Below, piece by piece: positions 11,003-17,478 of a stretch of DNA of 43,610 nucleotides. The stretch is from Syntrophomonadaceae bacterium (GTDB lineage: Bacteria > Bacillota > Syntrophomonadia > Syntrophomonadales > DTU052), in the NCBI GenBank assembly GCA_012729505.1, contig JAAYDA010000011.1, positions 1 to 43,610 on the forward strand, written 5' to 3'. Made by a program: the position numbers and the translations under genes. Positions within the stretch are counted from its first letter, which is position 1, and every line of letters begins with the position of its first letter. The notes under the pieces are model-generated. The model was not told the DNA's origin. It did not search any database and saw only the letters and a program-made list of their open reading frames with translations.

Positions 11003-12751
11003 TCAAAGCACCCTGGTTACCCCTTTATATATTTGACCACGGGCGGTATCCACCGTGACAATGCTTCCTTCTTCCAGCTTCTCCATTACCCCCTCTACTC
11101 CTACCACCACCGGTATATTCAGGTTTAGCCCCACAATAGCACTATGGGAGGTTAGACCACCTTCCTCAACCAGAACCGCCCCGGCAATTTGGAAAAGAGG
11201 CATATAATCAAGATTCGTTTCTGAAGCTGCCAGGATGTCACCCGGTTCAAAATCGGTTATCTTCAGTGGATCCCTGACCAGCCGAACCTTTCCGTAAACT
11301 GCACCCTGACCAATTCCGATTCCCTGAAGCAGAACCTCAGCCACTACGTGAACCTTGAGCAAGTTAGTAGTCCCCGCTACTCCTGCAGGGACTCCTGCTG
11401 TAATAACTACCATTTCCCCCTCTTTGACCATACCGGCCTCCAAGGCGGAATTTACTGATTCCTCAATCATCTGGTCAGTTCCTGTGGTCTCCTTTACCAC
11501 CAAAGGTGCAACTCCCCAAACCAGGTTCAGCTGACGTGCCACCTGTTCTATGGGGGTGGCCGCCACAATATCTGCCCTGGGCCGGTATTTGGACACCATT
11601 CGCGCTGTGGAGCCTGATTGGGTGGAAGTAATTATGGTGGATATCCCCAGATCCTCAGCCGCGGCACAAGTAGAATAGCTAATGGCGTCAGTAACGGACA
11701 AATTGCCCTGAAATGCCCGTCGCGCCAGAAGTTCCGGGTAGGGAAGAACCTCCTCGGTTCGACCCGCTATGCGAGCCATAGTTTCCACGACTACCAGGGG
11801 ATAACGACCTGCCGCTGTCTCTCCAGACAACATAATGGCATCGGCTCCATCGAAAATTGCATTAGCCACATCAGAAGCCTCGGCTCGGGTGGGCCGGGGG
11901 CTGTGAATCATTGATTCCAACATTTGAGTTGCTATAATAACCGGTTTGCCTACCCGGTTGCACTTATCAATTATGGTTTTCTGCACCAGAGGCACTTCTT
12001 CAGTGGGGATCTCCACTCCCAGATCACCCCGGGCCACCATGATGCCATCCGCTACCCGGATGATATCATCCAGGTTCGTAACCCCTGCCTGGTTCTCTAT
12101 TTTGGCAATTATGTAAACCACAGCATTATGCTCTTCTACTATCCGTCGAATCTGCAAAACGTCTTCCTGACAGTTTACAAATGAAGCCGCAATAATATCG
12201 ATTCCGTTTTCCAGACCAAAATTCAGATCGGCCACATCCTGCTCACTTAGAAAGGGCAGGGCGGTTCTGACTCCGGGAATGGTGATTCCTTTGCGTTCGC
12301 CCAGTTCGCCCCCGTAAACAACCTTACAAATGACATCAGTATTCACAACCTTTTCCACCACCAACTGAATAAAACCATCGGACAGCAAGACCCGATCCCC
12401 CGGCTTTACCTCCTTGGGAAAACCAGCATAACTGACTTGCACCTCTTTTTCATCCCCCGGGACGGGTCGAGTCGTCAATACAAACGGTTGTCCGTTCACC
12501 AACTGAACTGTGCCCTTACCGAGCTGACCGGTTCTAATATCCGGCCCCCGGGTATCCAGCATTATTGGAATATGCCGCCCCAATTCGCCGGCTGCCTTAC
12601 GGACCATATCCATTCGGGCCAGATGCCCCTCATGACTGCCATGGGAGAAGTTCAGCCGCACAACATCCATACCTTTCCTGATTAGGTCGGCTACCACTCC
12701 CGGCTCATCAGTTGACGGTCCCAAAGTGCATACTATCTTGGTTTTACGCAT
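11003..12751 (-). CDS. pyk: Pyruvate kinase with C-terminal PEP-utiliser domain
   Basis: A 582-aa enzyme that turns phosphoenolpyruvate and ADP into pyruvate and ATP. Seen: KIVCTLGPSTDEP at the N-terminus, RLNFSHGSHEGH, the B-domain, KIENQAGVTNLDDI, MVARGDLGVEIP, the active-site helix ATQMLESMIHSPRPTRAEASD, and MLSGETAAGRYP. After the regulatory C-domain there is an extra domain of about 100 residues (GGLTSHSAIVGLNLNIPVVVG) like the phosphohistidine domain of PEP synthase. This is the normal extended form in many Firmicutes. The start follows GGAGGGGGAAC and lies 12 bases after pfkA, so the two are co-transcribed. Confidence 0.97.
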   Translation of the reverse strand: MRKTKIVCTLGPSTDEPGVVADLIRKGMDVVRLNFSHGSHEGHLARMDMVRKAAGELGRHIPIMLDTRGPDIRTGQLGKGTVQLVNGQPFVLTTRPVPGDEKEVQVSYAGFPKEVKPGDRVLLSDGFIQLVVEKVVNTDVICKVVYGGELGERKGITIPGVRTALPFLSEQDVADLNFGLENGIDIIAASFVNCQEDVLQIRRIVEEHNAVVYIIAKIENQAGVTNLDDIIRVADGIMVARGDLGVEIPTEEVPLVQKTIIDKCNRVGKPVIIATQMLESMIHSPRPTRAEASDVANAIFDGADAIMLSGETAAGRYPLVVVETMARIAGRTEEVLPYPELLARRAFQGNLSVTDAISYSTCAAAEDLGISTIITSTQSGSTARMVSKYRPRADIVAATPIEQVARQLNLVWGVAPLVVKETTGTDQMIEESVNSALEAGMVKEGEMVVITAGVPAGVAGTTNLLKVHVVAEVLLQGIGIGQGAVYGKVRLVRDPLKITDFEPGDILAASETNLDYMPLFQIAGAVLVEEGGLTSHSAIVGLNLNIPVVVGVEGVMEKLEEGSIVTVDTARGQIYKGVTRVL

Positions 12752-12762
12752 TGTTCCCCCTC

Positions 12763-13722
12763 CTAAATGGACAATATCCGGGCCAACTGGTATATCTCCC
12801 GGTCAAACTCACAACTACCATCTACCACATCCTGCAGGTCTACCATCACCAGCTCAGGACCTGCCGCTCCAATCATTTGGTTAGTATGCCCGGCCAGAAA
12901 CATTTCCACCGCATAACTTCCCATACGCGAGGCCAGAATCCGGTCAGCCGCCGTCGGGGTCCCACCTCTCTGGGTATGTCCAAGCACTGTAACCCGGGTC
13001 TCCTGCCGGCTCATTTTTTCGATTTTCTTGCCTAATTGTATGGCACTGCAGCATCCCTCGGCCACCAAAATAATACTGTGGAGCTTGCCCCGGGCGATGC
13101 CGGAATTGATCCGCTTCACCACATCATCTATATCGAAAGGCAGCTCCGGCACCAGAATGGATTCGGCCCCCCCGGCCAATCCTGCCGCAAGAGCAATCTG
13201 CCCCGACTCCCGTCCCATCACCTCAATAATAAAAATGCGTTCATGAGAAGTAGCCGTATCCCTAATTCTATTAATGGCCTCTAAAACAGTATTGACCGCC
13301 GTATCAAACCCTATGGCTTTATCAGTACCCGGAATGTCATTATCTATACTGGCCGGTATCCCTATTATGTTAACCCCGGTTGCGGCCAGCTCATATCCTC
13401 CCCTCAGGGAGCCATTGCCTCCAATAACAAAAAGGACATCGATTCCGAAATAATCAAGGGCCTCTTTAGCCCGCATCCGCATATGTGCATTGCGAAATTC
13501 CTTGCTACGGGAGGTTCGCAATATAGTACCGCCGCGATGAATAATATCTCCGACAGAATTTACGGTCAATTTAATGAAATCGTGGTACATAAGACCGTGA
13601 AAACCCCGGTTGACACCAAACATAGTCAGTCCATGAAAAGTCCCGGTCCTGACCACCGCTCGAATAGCCGCATTCATCCCCGGAGCATCTCCCCCGCTGG
13701 TGAGAATCGCGATTCGCTTCAT
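12763..13722 (-). CDS. pfkA: 6-phosphofructokinase with Asn at position 103
   Basis: A 319-aa enzyme of the bacterial ATP-PFK family that phosphorylates fructose 6-phosphate. The start is ATG 13722, nine bases after GGGAGG; an upstream in-frame TTG would add seven residues. Conserved: TSGGDAPGMN (Gly11), Arg72, SIDNDIPGTDKAIGF with the catalytic Asp127 and Asp129, and IIEVMGRESG. Odd: the nucleotide/Mg motif is GGNGS in place of GGDGS, so residue 103 in standard numbering is Asn (codon AAT) where ATP-PFKs have a Mg-binding Asp. PPi-dependent PFKs change the next Gly to Asp, which is not the case here. It lies between mtrB and pyk. Activity or phosphoryl donor may be altered. Confidence 0.93.
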   Translation of the reverse strand: MKRIAILTSGGDAPGMNAAIRAVVRTGTFHGLTMFGVNRGFHGLMYHDFIKLTVNSVGDIIHRGGTILRTSRSKEFRNAHMRMRAKEALDYFGIDVLFVIGGNGSLRGGYELAATGVNIIGIPASIDNDIPGTDKAIGFDTAVNTVLEAINRIRDTATSHERIFIIEVMGRESGQIALAAGLAGGAESILVPELPFDIDDVVKRINSGIARGKLHSIILVAEGCCSAIQLGKKIEKMSRQETRVTVLGHTQRGGTPTAADRILASRMGSYAVEMFLAGHTNQMIGAAGPELVMVDLQDVVDGSCEFDREIYQLARILSI

Positions 13723-13770: not shown

Positions 13771-14001
13771 TCATTCTGCGTTGGAGACACGGCCATGCCG
13801 GGTCAGAAGCTCCGCGCGACCCCGGATTTTAACCGCGGAGGTGTGTTCAGTAAACTGAGCGATCATTATTTCCCCCCGGTCTAATTTCTCGGTGTGATGA
13901 AACTTCGTTTCTTTTCCCCGGGTCAATCCGATGATGGTGACTCCGTTTTCCAACGCCTTTATAACGATATAATCTTCCCCGGCTTTTCGATCCTCATTCA
14001 C
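13771..14001 (-). CDS. mtrB: trp RNA-binding attenuation protein TRAP (MtrB)
   Basis: A 76-aa protein closely matching B. subtilis TRAP, an 11-mer ring that binds tryptophan and then G/UAG triplets in trp leader RNA. Conserved stretches: [48 protein letters not shown], which include the RNA-binding Lys/Lys/Arg positions (EKLD and VKIRG). The start is GTG 14001, six to seven bases after GGGAGGG; an earlier GTG at 14016 would overlap that site. In Bacillus it sits with folE (mtrA). Here it lies between dnaE and pfkA, 48 bp ahead of pfkA. No trp gene or obvious triplet-repeat target is in the window. Confidence 0.93.
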
Positions 14002-14082
14002 TCGAATCCCTCCCACTATATAATGCGCACTCTTCCACCTTGTTAATCCGCCTGCCTTGATTTACCATAACTCAATTAGCCC

Positions 14083-17000
14083 TTATCGGCCTTCATTGAC
14101 AACCACCTGACTCTTCCCAAATACTCTTTCTAATTGGCTGCGCAGCTGTGAATTGACCGTAACCCAATATCGATGATCCAGCTCGATAGTTCGTCCCTCT
14201 CCCAAATGAAGATACACCGGGGCCTCACCCGGATGATGAGCCAGGATCTCCAGCAATTGATCTTTCAGACCGTTATCCTTTTTCCCATTCAAGCGCACAT
14301 GTACATCAGGTTTCCCGGTGGTCAAAGCCGTAACCGCACGGGATATGACTTTCGGCAGCTCATCTTGTTTTGTCAGCTTGCCCTCTAAGGAAATAACCGA
14401 ATCCGGAGTCAGATCAGGTCCATATTGCCGGTAAGCCGCCGAGAAGATTACAGCTTCAACTTTACCGGTCAAATCCTCAAGGGTAAAGCTGGCCCATGGT
14501 TCACCTTTCCGGCTGATCTTTCTGCTAAGCTCACTAACCATACCAACTAACCTGACATAGGTTCCATCTCTTAAAGACGCCGTCTCTTCAATCTGATGGG
14601 ATGAATAAAAGGGGATGAGCTGCCGATATTCTTCCAAAGGGTTTCCGGAAACGTAGAAACCCAGAACCTCTTTTTCCCGGGTCAAAAGCTCTGATACCGG
14701 AAATTCTCCTTTGAGACGAGGCTTAGGTTCTTCCGGCTCCTGCTCTCCCACTTCGAAAAGAGAAAGCTGGTTACTCTCCTCAGCAGCCCTCATACCCGCC
14801 GCTATTTCCAGCATCTCATCCATAACCTGCAGAGCTTCCCGCCGGCAGGTGCCCAGACTATCAAAACACCCTGCCAAGGCCAGGTTCTCCATCACTCGTT
14901 TATTGACCTGATGCAGATCCACCCTCCGGCAGAAGTCGAAAAGACTAACAAAAGGCGCCTCTTTTCTGGCCGCTATAATAGAACGATAAGCAGCCTCACC
15001 CACACCTTTTATTGCCCCCAGCCCAAACCTGATCCGGTCCCCTGCCACCGTAAAATTTTCAAAACTCTCATTAATATCAGGGGGCAAAATCTTGATCCCC
15101 ATACGCTGACATTCCCGGATATAGAAGACCACCCGGTCCTGGTTATCGATTACACTGGACAGGAAAGCCGTCATATATTCTACCGGATAATGATACTTCA
15201 GATAGGCCGTCTGGTACGAAATCATGGCATAGGCCGCACTATGGCTCTTGTTAAAGCCATAACCCGCAAAATGCTCCATCAAATCAAAAATATAGGAAGC
15301 TTTGTCTTGGAGAAGACCATTTATTATAGCCCCATTAACAAACTTATCCCTCTGTTTTTCAATTTCCTGGGGTTTCTTCTTGCCCATAGCCCGGCGCAGG
15401 CCATCGGCTTCCCCCATGGAAAAAGCCGCCAGCTCACTGGCCACCTGCATAACCTGCTCCTGATACAGAATAACCCCATAAGTCTCCTCTAATACCGGCT
15501 GCAGCATAGGGTCCACATAGGAGATCTCCTGCCGCCCATTTTTGCATTTGATAAAATCTTCTACCATCCCGCTCCCCAAAGGACCGGGACGATACAGAGC
15601 GATTACCGCAATCAAATCTTCAAACCGGTCCGGCTTCATATCTGTCAAAAGACGTCTTAATCCATCACTTTCCAGTTGGAATATGCCAATTGAATCACCA
15701 TTGGAAAGCAATTCATAGACTCCCGGGTCATCCAGAGGCAACTCCTCCGGGACTACCCTGATCCCCCGGGTTTTTTCCAGAATCTCCACCGTGCGCTGGA
15801 TAACAGTCAGGGTGCGAAGACCTAAGATATCCATTTTCAAAAGCCCGATTTCCTCAACCGTTTCCTTGGTAAACTGGGTTACCACATGGCCGTCGGTAGT
15901 TTTCTGCAAAGGCAAAAGGTTGGTTAGCTCATCATTACCAATCACCACTCCCGCCGCATGAACCGAATGATGACGGGGCATTCCCTCCAAAGCCCGGGCC
16001 GTATCCACCAGCTTACGCACCTGATAGTCCTGTTCATAAAGGTTAATCAAATCAGGAGAGATTTGCAGGCTCCGATCCAAAGTGATCCCCAACTCAGTGG
16101 GGATCATTTTGACTATCCGATCAGTTTCCGCATAAGAATATTCCAGTACCCTTCCCACATCACGAATGGCGGCCCGGGCCGCCATAGTCCCAAACGTAAT
16201 AATCTGGGCAACCCGGTCGTGGCCGTAACGGCCCACAATATAATCTATTACCTCATCACGCCGCTCAAAACAAAAATCAATATCTATATCCGGCATAGAA
16301 ACCCTCTCCGGATTAAGAAACCTCTCAAAAATCAGACCATAGGCCAACGGGTCAATAGTAGTAATGGACAACAGATACGAAACCAGGCTCCCCGCCGCCG
16401 AGCCCCGGCCCGGACCAACGGCAATTCCCCGTTTCTTGGCCCAGCTCACCAGATCATGGACAATCAAAAAATAGCCGGCAAATCCCATGCTATTAATGAC
16501 CCCCAGTTCATAATCCAGTCTCTCGACCACCTTCTCATCATAATTCGGATATTTTAAGGGCAGAAATTGATAACTCAGGATCCGCAAAAAATTCTCCGGA
16601 GTATCACCGGAAGGAATATCAAAAGCCGGCAGATAGAATTTATCAAAGCTAAATTCCAGATTACACCGTTCAGCTATCTCCAGGGTATTGGTCAAAGCCT
16701 CCGGGACTTCCCGGAACAGCATTGCCATCTCCTCCGCCGTCTTGAAATAAAACTCCGCACCGGAAAAGCGCATACGATCATTGTCATTTATATTCTTGCC
16801 CGTCTGAATACACAGAAGAACATCATGAATGAAAGCATCATCCTTCTCAAGGTAGTGAACATCATTAGTGGCCACCACCGGAAGCTGCATCTTCCGGGCA
16901 ATATTCAGCATCTCCCGGTTAATTAATTGCTGTTCCGGCAAGCCATGATCCTGAATCTCCAGGTAGAAATTATCCTTGCCCAACAACTCCGAATAATAAC

Positions 17001-17478
17001 CGGCTGCCCCTTCCGCTTCAGATAACTTACCGGACATGATCAGCTCCGGAATCTCTCCTGCCATACAAGCACTGAGTCCAATCAGGCCTTCATGATATTT
17101 CTCCAGCAATTCCCGGTCGATGCGGGGCTTGTAGTAGAAGCCCTCCAAAAAGCCCCGGCTGCTAAGCTGCAACAGATTCCGGTAACCCTTGTCATTGCGG
17201 GCCAGCAATACCAAATGATTCTGAGAATCATCCAGGCGAGGCGTCCGGTCCAAGCGGCTGCGCCGCGCCATATAAGCCTCAAAACCCAGGATCGGCTTTA
17301 TATTTTGTTTTTTAGCCTCCTTGTAAAAGTCCATGGTCCCATATAATACACCATGGTCAGTTACCGCCAGAGCCGGCATACCCTGGTCCGCCGCCTTCCT
17401 TACCATATCCTTGACCCGGGCCGCGCCGTCCAGAAGGCTGAATTCAGAATGGGTATGGAGATGAACAAAAGAACTCAT
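14083..17478 (-). CDS. dnaE: DNA polymerase III alpha subunit DnaE
   Basis: An 1131-aa replicative C-family polymerase. Seen: the PHP domain at the start (FVHLHTHSEFSLLDGA), the GPGRGSAAGSLVSY palm segment, the catalytic PDIDIDF motif, the QEQVMQVA and GYGFNKSHSAAYA regions, the tandem HhH part, and an OB fold (YVRLVGMVSELSRK) near the C-terminus. Length and order are those of DnaE1/DnaE3-type enzymes of low-GC bacteria; PolC would carry an inserted exonuclease, absent here. The start lies two bases after the ybaK-like stop, so translation is coupled. Downstream come mtrB, pfkA and pyk on the same strand. Confidence 0.97.
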   Translation of the reverse strand: MSSFVHLHTHSEFSLLDGAARVKDMVRKAADQGMPALAVTDHGVLYGTMDFYKEAKKQNIKPILGFEAYMARRSRLDRTPRLDDSQNHLVLLARNDKGYRNLLQLSSRGFLEGFYYKPRIDRELLEKYHEGLIGLSACMAGEIPELIMSGKLSEAEGAAGYYSELLGKDNFYLEIQDHGLPEQQLINREMLNIARKMQLPVVATNDVHYLEKDDAFIHDVLLCIQTGKNINDNDRMRFSGAEFYFKTAEEMAMLFREVPEALTNTLEIAERCNLEFSFDKFYLPAFDIPSGDTPENFLRILSYQFLPLKYPNYDEKVVERLDYELGVINSMGFAGYFLIVHDLVSWAKKRGIAVGPGRGSAAGSLVSYLLSITTIDPLAYGLIFERFLNPERVSMPDIDIDFCFERRDEVIDYIVGRYGHDRVAQIITFGTMAARAAIRDVGRVLEYSYAETDRIVKMIPTELGITLDRSLQISPDLINLYEQDYQVRKLVDTARALEGMPRHHSVHAAGVVIGNDELTNLLPLQKTTDGHVVTQFTKETVEEIGLLKMDILGLRTLTVIQRTVEILEKTRGIRVVPEELPLDDPGVYELLSNGDSIGIFQLESDGLRRLLTDMKPDRFEDLIAVIALYRPGPLGSGMVEDFIKCKNGRQEISYVDPMLQPVLEETYGVILYQEQVMQVASELAAFSMGEADGLRRAMGKKKPQEIEKQRDKFVNGAIINGLLQDKASYIFDLMEHFAGYGFNKSHSAAYAMISYQTAYLKYHYPVEYMTAFLSSVIDNQDRVVFYIRECQRMGIKILPPDINESFENFTVAGDRIRFGLGAIKGVGEAAYRSIIAARKEAPFVSLFDFCRRVDLHQVNKRVMENLALAGCFDSLGTCRREALQVMDEMLEIAAGMRAAEESNQLSLFEVGEQEPEEPKPRLKGEFPVSELLTREKEVLGFYVSGNPLEEYRQLIPFYSSHQIEETASLRDGTYVRLVGMVSELSRKISRKGEPWASFTLEDLTGKVEAVIFSAAYRQYGPDLTPDSVISLEGKLTKQDELPKVISRAVTALTTGKPDVHVRLNGKKDNGLKDQLLEILAHHPGEAPVYLHLGEGRTIELDHRYWVTVNSQLRSQLERVFGKSQVVVNEGR

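Follow-up and report, generated by a model that had tools for sequence, protein, structure and literature searches.

An Asn103 variant of ATP-type phosphofructokinase is nearly fixed among the short PfkA copies examined from Syntrophomonadales and recurs in other Bacillota

Introduction

Phosphofructokinase (PFK) is a textbook example of an allosteric enzyme. In its bacterial form PfkA, residue 103 is annotated in databases as a catalytic Mg2+ ligand; a mutagenesis paper by Berger and Evans reportedly appeared in 1992. The residue belongs to the motif that is used for predicting the phosphate donor of PFK enzymes. PMC11609450 gives the PFK-A signatures as GGDGSxxG for ATP, GGDGSxxI for ADP and GG(D/E)D(S/T) for pyrophosphate (PPi), with Asp104 and Lys124 as markers of the PPi type (likewise in PMC12203962). 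ADP-dependent PFK-A is known almost exclusively from cyanobacteria and alphaproteobacteria. At the active site, Mg2+ contacts Asp129 and Asp127 serves as the general base according to PMC10339645 and PMC12203962, respectively, and the passages of PMC7867265 consulted make no statement about residue 103. Within the open-licence papers searched, we found no phosphofructokinase paper that ties Asp103 to Mg2+ or the active site, and neither a report on a PFK with Asn103 or a GGNGS motif nor any kinetic or metal measurement of one.

Here we analyze the pfkA gene of a 43,610-nucleotide stretch of DNA (hereafter, the window) from a Syntrophomonadaceae bacterium of the order Syntrophomonadales within the phylum Bacillota. 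Its draft genome comprises 2.45 Mb in 80 contigs, and its lifestyle is probably syntrophic.

Results

The pfkA gene of the window is located at 12763..13722 on the minus strand, begins with an ATG at 13722 and encodes a product of 319 amino acids that matches the PF00365 profile with 360.2 bits and the ATP equivalog model TIGR02482 (PFKA_ATP) with 388.1 bits, above its cut-off of 371.35. The best solved Bacillus PFK chain aligns over residues 1-319 with zero gaps, so that the numbering of the two enzymes is colinear as a first-pass annotation of this DNA had proposed. Its reading of the motif at residues 101-105 as GGNGS (13408..13422, minus strand; codons GGA GGC AAT GGC TCC) was confirmed, with the Asn103 codon AAT at 13414..13416 on the same strand. 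Gly11, Arg72, Asp127 and Asp129 are conserved as it had stated, and Gly104, Gly108 and the fructose-6-phosphate (F6P) residues 162, 222, 243, 249 and 252 are retained in the alignment as well. Further changes at or near the site, which that annotation did not mention, are Gly124 to Ala and Thr125 to Ser (PASIDND), Tyr41 to Phe, and Cys73 to Ser.

The window enzyme thus resembles the ATP-dependent PfkA of Geobacillus stearothermophilus and E. coli, the type described by TIGR02482, in its length and gap-free alignment, the base Asp127, Asp129, the F6P site, and the ATP-site residues Gly104, Gly108 and Arg72, but differs from it by Asn103 for Asp, Ala124 for Gly, Ser125 for Thr, and Phe41 for Tyr. 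The residues of the allosteric site of bacterial PfkA are also the same. Because Asp103 is missing from its GGNGSLRG, the protein is no strict member of the ATP class by the published GGDGSxxG motif (Gly104, Ser105 and Gly108 are in place), but it matches ATP-dependent PFK-A by every other residue that we tested. From the ADP-dependent PFK-A of Synechocystis type, which belongs to the same family (PMC11609450), it differs by Asn103 and by having Gly108 rather than the ADP-type Ile108. PPi-dependent PFK-A are again of the same family and deviate in the very same motif (GG(D/E)D(S/T)), which could point to a PPi- or polyphosphate-dependent enzyme. However, the window protein has Gly104 and Ala124 instead of the Asp104 and Lys124 of that type and keeps the ATP-site residues Gly104, Gly108 and Arg72. 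We therefore rejected a PPi enzyme on signature, in agreement with the initial remark that the change is not the Gly104-to-Asp change of PPi-dependent enzymes, and regard dependence on either of these donors as highly improbable.

The gene is part of a cluster in the order dnaE-mtrB-pfkA-pyk with all genes on the minus strand. On its upstream side lie dnaE, encoding DNA polymerase III subunit alpha (14083..17478; NF005298, 1594.4 bits with a cut-off of 1260), and, between dnaE and pfkA, mtrB for the trp RNA-binding attenuation protein TRAP (13771..14016; PF02081, E 1e-40). Downstream, pfkA indeed sits ahead of pyk, with a gap of 11 bp between these same-strand genes; pyk (11003..12751; NF004978, 751 bits) encodes a pyruvate kinase with a C-terminal PEP-utilising-type domain that is matched by PEP synthase models from around residue 466. 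A TRAP homologue is present at 37 or more of the 45 pfkA loci of the order (a lower bound, with many loci carrying just 300 bases of flank) and shares the strand of pfkA in 37/37. It is also found at 15 of the 47 short-PFK loci numbered L188 upward and, among 76 distinct named rows, at L130 only.

Asn103 is nearly fixed in the short PfkA copies of the order that we examined. With 61 genomes of the order searched for PFK, 43 of 45 distinct short copies (the window's included) carry Asn103, and the remaining two have Glu and Lys. The same copies have Ala124 in 43/45 and Ser125 in 12/45 cases. An erroneous base call or assembly at codon 103, to which the 80-contig draft state of the window's assembly might lend some credit, is ruled out by these 43 copies and by the use of both asparagine codons (AAT in 29 and AAC in 23 of the 52 Asn103 locus rows inside and outside the order), leaving it a vanishingly small probability. 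The closest named records, with 78-79% PfkA identity, are metagenome-assembled genomes (MAGs) labeled Syntrophothermus sp. DTU052, Syntrophomonadaceae and Bacillota. Among the 80 named best matches to the window PfkA, mostly from Bacilli, 76 have Asp103 and four have Asn103.

Across the phylum, an Asn103-specific PfkA DNA pattern was found in 22 of 398 genomes, eight of them outside the order. When any residue was allowed at position 103, the pattern occurred at 138 places in 135 of 199 phylum genomes, and a tally by reading the rows gave Asp at 113, Asn at 13 (seven of these in the window's order), Glu at 9, and Gly at 3; both patterns miss other PFKs because they are tied to one fixed spacing and to either Gly or Ala at position 124. 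The change is therefore not a singular oddity but a clade-wide and recurrent natural variant, given its presence in 43/45 order copies and its repeated origins in the phylum.

Glu103 is seen in short PfkA of other Bacillota families (L240, L241, L242, L248, L250, L257), including G224, whose sole PF00365 member (L242) has this residue, and Gly103 in those at L234, L244 and L251. These natural variants suggest that the aspartate may be useful, yet not indispensable. Genome G321 encodes two divergent PfkA copies (L191, L253), one with Asp103 and one with Asn103, and Arg243 and His249 are altered in both. Short PFK genes split over two frames in drafts G035 (L076) and G061 (contig 3), as well as a similarly split long paralogue in draft G001 (L077), may be sequencing errors.

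On an unrooted PfkA tree of 101 rows, made without column 103 by a quick method without bootstrap and with several long branches, the Asn label needs nine changes, of which at least five are forced by well-supported branches. The order forms a single group (SH-aLRT 95) with Asn103 in 43 of its 45 members. With the direction of change that we infer on this tree, Asn103 probably became fixed in the order's ancestor and originated separately in other Bacillota lineages. Over 11 pairs of Asn103 genes, one of them with saturated dS, dN/dS ranges from 0.036 to 0.136 (0.076 in the single Asp103 control pair), which indicates purifying selection of an ordinary kind and rules out gene decay. Throughout 53 Asn103 rows (52 distinct, as the window appears twice), Arg72, Gly104, Gly108, Asp127, Asp129, Arg162, Glu222 and Arg252 are invariant, and Arg171 and Arg243 are present in 45 and 46 rows, respectively.

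A search for a second pfk in the window's genome, as the first-pass annotation had proposed, returned one PFK-A gene with Asp103 (contig 17, L001 1483-2574; motifs GGDGSLSI and PKTIDND). Its product scores above the cut-off of TIGR02483 (PFK_mixed; 467.2 versus 430.55 bits) and below that of the ATP equivalog TIGR02482 (305.9 versus 371.35 bits), and it misses the cut-off of NCBIfam PRK14071.1. The order has at least 30 longer paralogues, this second PFK-A included, which are set apart by Lys124, and the 30 analyzed all have Asp103 and Ile108, with the 61-genome search listing further copies outside this set. Judging from their GGDGSxxI signature, these long paralogues may be ADP-dependent PFKs in these Bacillota. 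Many genomes of the order combine such a second PFK-A of another type with the short copy. Five others that are 92-100% complete (G010, G011, G015, G017, G020) yielded one PFK match each, which belongs to the long type, so that some relatives can do without the Asn103 copy where the long type is present.

The Asp103 enzyme in the window's genome, the relatives that keep the second type alone, and the Glu or Lys at position 103 in two relatives could all be accommodated if the Asn103 copy were a paralogue that has lost its activity and acts in regulation, with the second PFK performing catalysis. However, the Asn103 copy is the sole PF00365 member in seven of ten Asn103 genomes queried (G014, G025, G191, G137, G200, G349, G175). 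Two of these, G200 and G349, have a PfkB/1-PFK family match above cut-off (a PFK-B-type kinase), and the other five gave only weak matches to this family below cut-off and none above. The Asn103 enzyme is thus the only recognisable PFK of G014, G025, G191, G175 and G137, drafts that are 93-98% complete but come in 70-450 contigs and may have genes missing, with the G137 copy running off its contig. It is adjoined by pyk in all four of these drafts that were checked for it (G025, G191, G175, G137). Together with low dN/dS and the invariance of Asp127, Asp129, Arg72, Arg162, Glu222 and Arg252 in Asn103 rows, these genomes make a dead paralogue very unlikely, and the purely regulatory role considered in the first-pass annotation is disfavored by the conserved catalytic base and by the genomes with the Asn103 enzyme as only PFK. 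The Asn103 enzymes of G200 and G349 (L192, L193) have lost Arg171, with Asn at 171 as well as at 103, and no pyk was found in the flanking stretches examined beside the Asn103 pfkA of G200, G349 and G321. A class II aldolase was found in 9/9 genomes checked.

The Asn103 enzyme might also be active but shifted: it could bind Mg less tightly, favor Mn2+ or a different metal, turn over more slowly, or be more easily reversed. Such a shift would fit the loss of a charge from the donor motif, the changes in the same pocket that Ala124 (43/45) and Ser125 (12/45) represent, and the fact that many of the order's genomes also encode a PFK-A of a different type; if true, it would suit life near thermodynamic equilibrium with the step shared with the second PFK. 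Yet Ala124 is frequent with Asp103 too, which rules it out as a linked compensation for Asn103, and none of the columns listed is a convincing acidic compensation across independent origins. Column 111 holds an acidic residue in 0.75 of the rows whose residue 103 is non-acidic, versus 0.09 of the remaining rows, but it changes in the same direction in at most 3/7 independent pairs; among the columns listed, the corresponding values are at most 3/6 for column 289 (acidic) and at most 4/6 for column 290 (basic). Furthermore, the window's genome has a glpX fructose-1,6-bisphosphatase (FBPase) gene, so that PFK reversal is not needed for gluconeogenesis. Overall, we consider a shifted enzyme unlikely.

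Discussion

We think it quite probable that the window PfkA is a working ATP-dependent 6-phosphofructokinase of the allosteric type, with asparagine in place of the metal-facing Asp103. The base Asp127, Asp129, Arg72 and the fructose-6-phosphate site are all kept. The divalent metal would most likely be coordinated by Asp129, water and the phosphates of ATP, and Asn103 would replace the carboxylate by hydrogen bonding to metal-bound water or phosphates. Both ATP catalysis and this metal geometry are what we infer from sequence, and the likeliest function is that of an ATP-PFK whose metal shell differs slightly. A working ATP-PFK is suggested by the TIGR02482 score above cut-off, the invariant catalytic residues, the low dN/dS, the recurrent origins and the status as sole PFK in some drafts, as well as by the consistent presence of class II aldolase and the occurrence of Glu or Gly at position 103 elsewhere. 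Against it speak the Asp103 PFK-A in the same genome and the five near-complete relatives with the long type only, the fact that Arg171 and Arg243 are not invariant, the combination of a PFK-B-type kinase, lost Arg171 and no adjoining pyk in G200 and G349, the lack of any paper on an Asn103 PFK among the open-licence papers searched, and the genes that the sole-PFK drafts may miss.

The recurrent natural occurrence of Asn, Glu and Gly at position 103 means that the donor motif is not strict, so that annotation rules demanding GGDGS would miss such enzymes, and makes these PFKs natural variants for probing the role of the aspartate. It is a rather doubtful, more far-reaching idea that the whole order and several independent lineages might run glycolysis with a PFK that has given up the metal-facing aspartate, has a changed metal need or reversibility, and shares the labor with the ADP-signature PFK-A in the same cell. 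Altered kinetics or metal use, if true, would bear on the sugar metabolism of syntrophs that live at the energetic limit.
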